64,000 bases of DNA, taken from assembly GCA_011033025.1 (NCBI GenBank), contig WFMF01000104.1, positions 417,902 through 481,901 on the forward strand, written 5' to 3'. Made by a program: the position numbers and the translations under genes. This stretch comes from Beroe forskalii. Lineage: Eukaryota > Ctenophora > Nuda > Beroida > Beroidae. This document shows, in pieces, positions 33,176 through 36,100 of the stretch. Every line of letters starts with the position of its first letter. Within the stretch, counting starts at the first letter, position 1. The notes beneath the pieces were generated by a model that searched no databases, was not told the DNA's origin, and saw only the letters and a program-made list of their open reading frames with translations.

Positions 33176-36100
33176 CTGAGAACGGTAGAGGGAATTAAAG
33201 AATTTGTAGCAGATAATTTGCTTTATAATTAACCAAAGTCCTCTTTTCGTGTTCGCGCGCGTGCCGTAGTTTCACTCCTCGTCAGGCCGTACATAGCAGG
33301 AGCACGTACGGTATGTTTCTAAGCAGTCGGGAAGTTTTTCCACCAACCTGGCACGTTTTGACACCCACCTGACACGTTTCAACACCAACCTGGCACGTTT
33401 TGACACATATCAGGCACGTTTTTGACACCCACCTGACACGTTTCGACACCAACCTGGCACGTTTTGACACAAACCCGGCACGTTTTGACACCTACCCGGC
33501 ACGTTTTGACACCTACCCGGCACGTTTTGACACCTACGCGGCACGTTTTGACACCTACCCGGCACGTTTTGACACCTACGCGGCACGTTTTGACACCTAC
33601 CCGGTACGTTTTGAGACATACCCGGCACGTTTTGACACCTACGCGGCACGTTTTGACACCTACGCGGCACGTTTTGACACCCACCCGGCACGTTTTGACA
33701 CATACGCGGCACGTTTTGACACATAGGTATCAGGCACGTTTTTGACACCCACCTGACACGTTTCGACACCAACCTGGCACGTTTTGACACAAACCCGGCA
33801 CGTTTTGACACATACCCGGCACGTTTTGACACCTACCCGGCACGTTTTGACACCTACCCGGCACGTTTTGACACCTACCCGGCACGTTTTGACACCTACG
33901 CGGCACGTTTTGACACCTACCCGGTACGTTTTGAGACATACCCGGCACGTTTTGACACCTACGCGGCACGTTTTGACACCTACGCGGCACGTTTTGACAC
34001 CTACCCGGCACGTTTTGACACATACGCGGCACGTTTTGACACATACCCGGCACGTTTTGACACCTACGCGGCACGTTTTGACACCTACGCGGCACGTTTT
34101 GACACCTACCCGGTACGTTTTGAGACATACCCGGCACGTTTTGACACCTACGCGGCACGTTTTGACACATACCCGGTACGTTTTGACACCTACGCGGCAC
34201 GTTTTGACACCTACCCGGCACGTTTTGAGTGGTGAATTCCGGACTGAAGTGCTTCAAATCCAGGTTGTCCGCCACGTTGGGATCGTACGGGGGCTTGATC
34301 TGCTTCTTCTCGAGCAGCACCCAGTCGATGGAGGAGAAGAACTGGTGCTCCTTCACATCCAGCTGGGGGAGGATGAGGGGGTGACTGGGGAGTGGGGATC
34401 TATCGTCCATGATACTGATAGCTCTTGATATGACTCATGAAACATGGCATACATGCTACAAAAACACGCCAAAATTAAGATTAGAGAGGATTTGCGAATC
34501 ACCTTTTCCATGAACTTCCCTGCATCCTGCAGGAAAGAGTACTTACCACATCTCTGGAAGAAGACCCTAGTCTGTTGTTCGTTTGTTTTTGCAACAGCCC
34601 CTCTAGGAGCTTCTTAGCGTGCTGGGACACGTGGCTCTTAAAACGGACCGGTTTGTACAGGATGTTCTCGTACATCTCCCGGGTGTCTTTACTGTAGAAG
34701 GGCGGCTGGGGGAAGAGAAAGAGGGTTTTAAAAGGAGATTTAGGGTACATTTGGGGAGCGTCAAGGCACAAGTAAAGGTAATTGACAAGGAGATGTGACT
34801 GCTGCAGGCGGCATACTACATTATTGAAGATTCGGACAGTCTACAGTTTTGTCCATAACTCGGAATCATGGAAAATATCAGTATACGAAATGAAATGCTA
34901 GACCACTGTCTACACCAGTACACCACATACCAGTCCGAATATCATCTCGTAGAGGACGGCCCCCAGGCACCACCAGTCCACGGCGTTGGTGTACGGCTGC
35001 TTCTGAATAACCTCCGGAGCCAAGTACTCGGGAGTGCCGCAAAACGTGTTAGTCGTCTTGTTCAGGGCTATCCCCTCCTTGCACAGTCCAAAGTCTGTCA
35101 GCACGATGTGACCCTGCAGCGAAATGGGGCGCTAAGAAACATGAAATGCTATACGTGACAACAAACACAGATTTGATCAACGTTTCGACGGGCTCCGATG
35201 GTTTCGACGCATCGCAACTAAACGCAATATTCGACGCTTGGAGCACTCACCTCCCTATCAAGGAGAATGTTCTCTGGCTTCAAGTCTCTGTAGATTATGT
35301 TCAAACTGTGGAGATAGCCAATGGCACTCGCGATCTCAGCAGCGTAGAACCGAGCTCTGCGACGAGAATTTAAATAAGATACTATTGGACGCAGGACTTC
35401 TGATATCAGCTATACGGTTCACAAAATCAAAAAACAAGGAAGATCTGAAGATAATAGCGCAAACCAAGCAAACTTGTTGATCTAGGATTTAAAATTAGAG
35501 AAACTATATGAAATATAACGTTGATGAATGCTAAATGTCCTTTTTTTACTTTTTTAGCAACATGTCACCACAAAAAACAATCCATTACTGCTGAGTATGA
35601 AGCATTTTCCTGAATGTGCTTTACCTTGACTCGTGGAAGGTTCTCTCTCTCTGCAGGTGGAAGAAGAGTTCGCCCCCGTTAACGTAGTCCAACACAAAGA
35701 AGAGTTTATCCTTGGTCTTGAAGGAGTACTTGAGTCCCACTAGGAAAGGGTGCTTCACGTTCCTGATCAACACGTTCCTCTCGGCCATGATGTGCTTCGC
35801 CTGGGGATGGAGGAAGTGCTGATAGGTCAATACGGTGATAGGCAATGCCTCTTTGTTGTACAAGGGACCAAAAGTGTGGTAAAAAAGGTCGCCTAAAAAG
35901 CTAAAATGGTCAATATGCTAGTCTTATGGTTGAGAATAATACGTTTATGCGTTCATAGGTCGAAGGCATAGTCCCATACACCATATAATACAGACAGTTT
36001 CTTCCTCAGGAAATATCTCTCCCTCATCTTTCTTGAAAATTGGGACTGTGAAGTATGATAATAATTACCCAGTCATTTTCATTTTTTACCTGCCCCTTCC

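Follow-up and report, generated by a model that had tools for sequence, protein, structure and literature searches.

A minisatellite of candidate 5' splice sites straddling an exon end in a ctenophore SGK gene

The last intron of a ctenophore SGK gene opens with a long tandem repeat that begins inside the preceding exon, and each unit repeats the exon-intron junction together with its 5' splice site. Putting the probability at about 0.6, we read this array as a junction minisatellite that has been re-amplified in the gene copy described here, with a dominant first donor, some leakage to strong donors nearby and no selection on the array itself. The window, by which we mean the whole 64-kb stretch of DNA that was analysed, takes up the final 64 kb of contig C44 (481,901 bases) in a 216-Mb assembly, and the gene lies on its minus strand. 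The features discussed below are collected in Table 1.

The identity of the host gene is well marked. The joined kinase exons have human SGK1 (2r5t, E 3.2e-143) as their best match in PDB, and GT and AG are present at all five introns between the six modelled coding exons. An AGC kinase domain with its C-terminal extension is found in the product (Pkinase, 203 bits; Pkinase_C, 23.1 bits against a cut-off of 20.9). The last exon encodes EFHGFTY, a hydrophobic motif of the form FxxF(T/S)Y, and SLMKSPD, the turn motif. Mnemiopsis leidyi protein P0001 shares 92% identity across 98% of the query, the first exon of which is an unproven combination, and the other 119 matches listed reach at most 70% identity. 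This match marks the host as a ctenophore, though probably a species other than M. leidyi. P0001 also contains a PX domain (PF00787); pieces that match its N-terminal part occur at ~62037-61951 of the window and on contig C271, and over that part the window copy was not assembled.

Table 1. Positions of the features discussed, in window coordinates unless contig C271 is named.
Feature	Position	Strand	Basis or remark
GlyA, SGK N-lobe glycine loop	41831-41767	-	ends read by hand
GlyB, SGK N-lobe glycine loop	41647-41590	-	
VAIK-B, SGK N-lobe VAIK strand	40538-40455	-	
VAIK-A, SGK N-lobe VAIK strand	37482-37396	-	
C271 N-lobe exons	C271: 32461-32518, 32748-32831, 32889-32975		
Four upstream kinase exons (35800-35625, 35356-35251, 35113-34931, 34705-34547)	34547..35800	-	exon model; best PDB match SGK1 2r5t
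SGK penultimate coding exon, ending in the 13 exonic nt of unit 1	34215..34362	-	homology, splice sites; C271 encodes an identical 49-aa peptide
Last intron; 1039 nt if spliced from donor 1 (C271 copy: 313 nt)	33176..34214	-	exon model
Last coding exon, with the turn motif, EFHGFTY (hydrophobic motif) and the stop codon	33063..33175	-	homology, splice sites
21-bp minisatellite, 42 units, consensus CAAAACGTGCCGG/GTAGGTGT (the slash marks the donor)	33334..34228	-	TRF and unit table
Donor 1, GTAGGT, predicted main donor	34209..34214	-	log-odds 7.8; U1 pairing at 9/9 positions including two G-U
Donor 2, predicted weak (C at -1); +7 residues, NVPHS	34188..34193	-	log-odds 3.4; U1 -4.0 vs -10.6 kcal/mol for donor 1, fixed register
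Donor 3, nearest strong rival to donor 1; +14 residues	34167..34172	-	log-odds 7.4; simulated splicing
Unit 24, 26 bp, donor lost; TGA at 33732-33730 ends the exon frame	33719..33744	-	unit table, frame reading, simulated splicing
Unit 39, 22 bp, no donor GT; corresponds to unit 24 through the block copy	33403..33424	-	units 10-24 vs 25-39

TRF places the repeat at 33334-34228 with a period of 21, 42.3 copies, 88% matches and a score of 1302, and an array of this kind is certainly far beyond chance. Its length is that of the one assembly, as assembled, and compares with ~10 units in the C271 copy. Split along the minus strand it comprises 42 units, of which 39 measure exactly 21 bp; the others are unit 24 (26 bp), unit 39 (22 bp) and a degenerate last unit. 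Unit 1, CAAAACGTGCCGG/GTAGGTGT, straddles the exon end with 13 nt of exon and 8 nt of intron, and its donor GT begins at 34214 (-). The unit thus includes the exon end and the 5' splice site, and the array starts in the exon, as expected of an exon-intron junction minisatellite. GT stands at the donor place in 40 of the 42 units, being absent from units 24 and 39. In all of this our measurements agree with a preliminary description of the same DNA, which had reported a 21-bp minisatellite of about 42 units starting inside the exon, GT in about 40 of them, donors in phase 1 and a frame open down to 33730; that frame is closed by the TGA at 33732-33730. Read in the exon frame, the unit encodes QNVPGRC. 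The 39 full units fall into 12 sequence types and differ from one another by 10% on average across the window array. Seven of the other 38 full units are identical to unit 1, and three more share its donor 9-mer. Units 12-17 and 27-32 carry the sequence types in identical order, and units 10-24 correspond to units 25-39 at an offset of 15 units, as a block copy.

Comparison with other SGK proteins points to where the array grew. All 20 SGK proteins that were aligned, a choice from 120 listed, have the V of VP, and 17 of them have the full VP. The alignment is free of gaps and insertions at the junction; its small length changes lie several residues past it. Of the 87 listed homologs that fit the motif, 84 have V at this position and 3 have I (33 of the 120 do not fit and were excluded). 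Because V and VP are conserved and the alignment is gap-free at the junction, the exon end has its ancestral length, with the array running into the intron. The suggestion made at the outset, of an ancestral first unit and growth into the intron, is therefore one we retain.

The unit is confined to SGK. A search of the 216-Mb genome with a 30-base pattern, allowing up to 3 mismatches, returned 36 matches, 35 in the window array and one in a second SGK copy; the reversed pattern, run as a control over the same genome, returned none. We rejected an origin from a mobile element or introner, since all 36 matches fall within the two SGK copies and there is no dispersal.

The second copy was found by whole-genome DNA search at C271:33611-35276, where it is 78% identical to the window gene. 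A protein search with the penultimate exon recovered two perfect copies, in the window and on C271, and two further, weak matches. All 294 residues encoded by the six compared exons are the same in both proteins. The coding comparison counts 64 synonymous steps and 1 non-synonymous step (dS 0.45, dN 0.001), and full protein identity beside 64 synonymous steps is unusually strict conservation for two copies in one assembly. Aligned bases of the five introns show 67-77% identity.

The last intron of the C271 gene also opens with an array, of ~10 units and a 3-nt stub. Unit 1 there matches the consensus at 20 of 21 positions, unit 2 at 19 and units 3-10 at 11-17; units 1 and 2 differ from each other by one base. 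GT is retained in 5 of the ~10 units (1, 2, 5, 7 and 8). In the nine rows beyond unit 2, one of them the stub, the donor G matches in three and the T in eight, the latter a joint-best column where the column mean is 5.8; decay at the donor is thus confined to the G. By eye, the exon frame reaches a TAA in unit 3, and therefore only donors 1 and 2 preserve the frame in this copy. The first 30 intron nucleotides are identical between copies at 26 of 30 positions here and at 20-27 of 30 in the other four introns, a range that includes the value found here, so unit 2 is not specially conserved. Because the C271 intron starts with the same array in decayed form, the array appears to be old, with about half of the C271 donors lost. 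The window units differ by 10% while the introns are only 67-77% identical, which argues that the window array was amplified or homogenised later.

On the sequence comparisons, our preferred though unproven view is that the C44 and C271 genes are paralogs. We considered C271 as the other allele and rejected this: a comparison of 164 kb of C44 with 116 kb of C271, by best match per kilobase, found no gene-scale collinearity outside SGK. One neighbouring pair of DNA matches (C271 23.4-26.3 kb and C44 376.8-377.8 kb) lies in the other relative orientation and is assumed to be a repeat. The RNA polymerase second-subunit genes on C495 and C740 look single, and the assembly is therefore not generally doubled. 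A further such gene is present on C170 in two inverted copies about 25 kb apart (C170:571018-574053, +, and 599402-605082, -), either a real duplication or a fold-back assembly error. The two SGK copies might instead be very diverged haplotypes, or come from a mixed sample, which would alter the timing.

The donors of the window array are not equal. The preliminary description had proposed a splice-site score for each unit, and we obtained one from a metazoan weight table and from pairing to the U1 5' end, values that are not fitted to ctenophores. Log-odds are 3.0-3.4 in units with C at position -1, against 7.8 in unit 1; the remaining four donors in the exon model range from 7.7 to 11.4. Position -1 is G in 26 and C in 13 of the 39 full units, with unit 2 among the latter, and two -1G units with GTTT score likewise low (3.2). 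In fixed register the U1 energy of the -1C units is -4.0 or -0.5 kcal/mol, as against -10.6 for unit 1, and in the commonest -1G donor types U1 pairing is possible at 8-9 of 9 positions. Energy alone cannot exclude the -1C units, because the gene's own donor at 34930 (CTGGTATGT, log-odds 7.7) has a fixed-register energy of -3.2, no better than -4.0; these units may still be usable as donors. Every unit has another GT four bases downstream, which would shift the frame and scores 2.3.

When splicing to the acceptor at 33175 was simulated, donors 1-23 yielded the full in-frame C-terminus with 0, 7 ... 154 added residues, and the 17 donors of units 25-38 and 40-42 lay beyond the TGA of unit 24. 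The early proposal that donor choice could add multiples of seven residues in frame holds in this simulation for the first 23 donors and fails for the other 17 of 40. An insertion would fall before the hydrophobic motif, as had been proposed, but it would also precede the turn motif. At the simulated junctions -1G donors restore NVPDS (NVSDS for unit 23) and -1C donors give NVPHS, so that choice of a -1C donor would change the junction Asp to His. The insertion point corresponds to P449/D450 in the AlphaFold model of P0001 (mean pLDDT 74.9). Mean confidence over 10 residues drops there from 72 to 45, so short inserts may be tolerated.

The reading we favour brings these observations together as follows. 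Replication slippage would have duplicated the last 13 nt of the exon with the first 8 nt of the intron, each copy becoming a potential 5' splice site, and the array would have been present before the two SGK copies parted. It would then have decayed in the C271 copy and been re-amplified in the window copy, partly by duplication of a block of ~15 units. Donor 1 (34214) would then be the main choice of the spliceosome. Minor leakage would reach strong donors close by (units 3, 5, 6, 9 and further ones), skip the -1C units and produce SGK with 14, 28, 35 ... extra residues before the turn motif. We infer slippage or unequal exchange from the tandem structure, the block copies and the degenerate ends, and the order of events, the dominance of donor 1 and the leakage from sequence. 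Against this reading, the near-match of C271 units 1 and 2 could mean that the second donor is kept on purpose.

The array could also be an inert intronic minisatellite, with donor 1 the sole donor used and the others outcompeted and never in mRNA. Donor 1 is strong and nearest the exon, donor 2 is predicted to be weak, and the annotated M. leidyi P0001 has no insert. A repeat-tail search of 5.8 billion proteins is in keeping with such inertness, having given 5 hits, none with a precomputed Pfam domain, and no kinase-repeat fusion; however, this is a weak test, since ctenophore sequences seem scarce in the database (one ctenophore was noticed among the names of the 120 listed SGK hits, many of them nameless). 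The best match, P0121, is a 248-aa protein (E 8.7e-17) with heptapeptide repeats like NVPGRSG. We rejected these matches as SGK, having found none in the three sequences inspected, and take them as convergence of simple repeats. The recurrence of the unit 1 sequence and of its donor 9-mer along the array also speaks against complete inertness, as does human IFI6, in which two downstream units are used according to a paper that cites the original work (PMC4526556). We regard inertness as rather unlikely. Alternatively, the array could act in the RNA as a cluster of U1 sites, whether as an exon-definition enhancer, as a decoy, or as a brake that leaves the last intron retained. The 26 of 39 full units with -1G, and the extensive U1 pairing open to the commonest of them, would suit this, but the C271 gene, whose protein is the same across the exons compared, gets by with few such sites, and we consider the possibility very unlikely.

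Selection on the array would be a different matter. Donor choice and allele length might tune SGK by inserting seven residues, or a multiple of seven, after the active-site tether and before the turn motif; a unit length that is a multiple of 3, 23 donors in frame and an insertion point adjoining the low-confidence tail of the P0001 model are all compatible with this. Yet the C271 array has decayed, no more than 23 of the 40 donors give a complete protein, no insert occurs at the junction in the 20 aligned SGKs, and GT and frame are kept no better than expected. Twelve of the 21 columns are invariant among the 39 full units (GT and 10 others), and the probability that two named columns are both invariant is 0.31. 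Selection on GT was rejected as unnecessary in view of these 12 columns and of the loss of GT from 5 of 10 units in C271. The open frame is likewise no signal, because 4 of the 6 frames of the consensus unit are open, with long open frames on both strands; only 2 of the 63 single changes of that unit create a stop in the exon frame, and selection on the frame was rejected as well. A plus-strand gene within the array was also discarded, as its open frames are what the unit yields by itself. The original idea that the array is kept for function is not supported: GT is lost from 5 of about 10 C271 units, and recent amplification accounts for GT in the window. Selected tuning through donor choice and allele length is thus highly improbable. 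We give slightly less credence still to a rheostat in which a slippage-prone series of donors sets, in steps of seven residues, the distance from the tether to the turn and hydrophobic motifs and produces graded kinases, with the C271 twin nearly fixed at zero or seven. Taken together, a selected function is unlikely on present evidence, and we think that the array itself is under no selection; as to kinase activity that would be tuned by length, the sequence evidence points neither way.

Arrays laid out in this manner occur in two human genes. The VNTR of CBS lies at exon 13 and, going by the title of a study cited alongside it, is reportedly linked to reduced CBS activity. IFI6 (6-16, G1P3) has an in-frame repeat with a 12-bp unit, and Turri et al. 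are said to have described in 1995 its minisatellite with multiple splice donors. The CBS repeat is written c.1444_1467+7(16_21), a notation for 24 nt of exon and 7 nt of intron, 31 bp in all, present in 16-21 copies, and its copy number varies in people (PMC2630376). By this notation CBS resembles the SGK array in that the repeat starts within the exon and every unit carries a copy of the exon-intron junction; its unit, unlike the in-frame 21 bp of SGK with 42 copies, is not a multiple of 3. For IFI6, the citing paper has two downstream repeat units serving as donors and giving three mRNAs (PMC4526556). On that account the layout is alike, with repeat units that carry donors; unit, gene and phylum differ, and use is reported for IFI6 whereas the SGK donors are candidates. 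Links to splicing are also reported for minisatellites of TERT intron 6 and ABCA7, and for the C. elegans tandem repeat CeRep25B, which is mostly intronic (PMC4039745). The TERT repeats lie >1 kb from junctions and CeRep25B mostly within introns, whereas the SGK repeat itself contains the splice site. Because CBS and IFI6 share its layout, the SGK array is a further case of a known arrangement, now extended from two human genes to ctenophores. It is set apart by its 40 candidate donors, by an in-frame 21-bp period, by its place in the conserved tail of a kinase and by the decayed C271 array, which serves as a control. Among the literature matches listed, which cover the field in part, no donor array was found for a ctenophore or for SGK. 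The array offers a natural test of spliceosome choice: it presents ~40 regularly spaced 5' splice sites that are nearly identical and differ by single bases (-1 G or C, +3, +4), and the short array of the second copy provides a control. Should several donors be used, the case would also show how slippage of a repeat at the edge of an exon lengthens a conserved protein with its frame intact.

The N-lobe exons of this gene, the glycine loop and the VAIK strand, are each present in two versions, and these doubled exons are most likely alternative exons. Between the two gene copies GlyB differs at 0 of 58 nt, VAIK-B at 0 of 84 and VAIK-A at 4 of 87, with 65 of 885 in the later exons; at the later-exon rate, zero differences would have a chance of 0.012 for GlyB and 0.0016 for VAIK-B. 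M. leidyi P0001 resembles the B forms. In C271 the gap from VAIK-B to VAIK-A is just 57 nt, which would hinder their joint use. The window GlyA has 7 bases more than its C271 counterpart, at 41780-41767, through a short tandem duplication that would shift the frame at the donor.

VAIK-B in the window is flanked by two inverted copies of an element (~41588-40766 and ~40216-39381; 96% identical over 840 aligned columns), a pair that could form a long RNA hairpin around the exon. The corresponding intervals in C271 are 229 and 57 nt, too short to contain the element. Inverted pairs of minisatellites also occur elsewhere in the window, at 3530-4480 and 5886-6729 (94% identical, 864 aligned columns), 29578-30055 and 30056-30737 (86%, 478 columns), and 47253-47893 and 54070-54652 (94%, 593 columns), as if tandem repeats made up the inverted ends of mobile elements.
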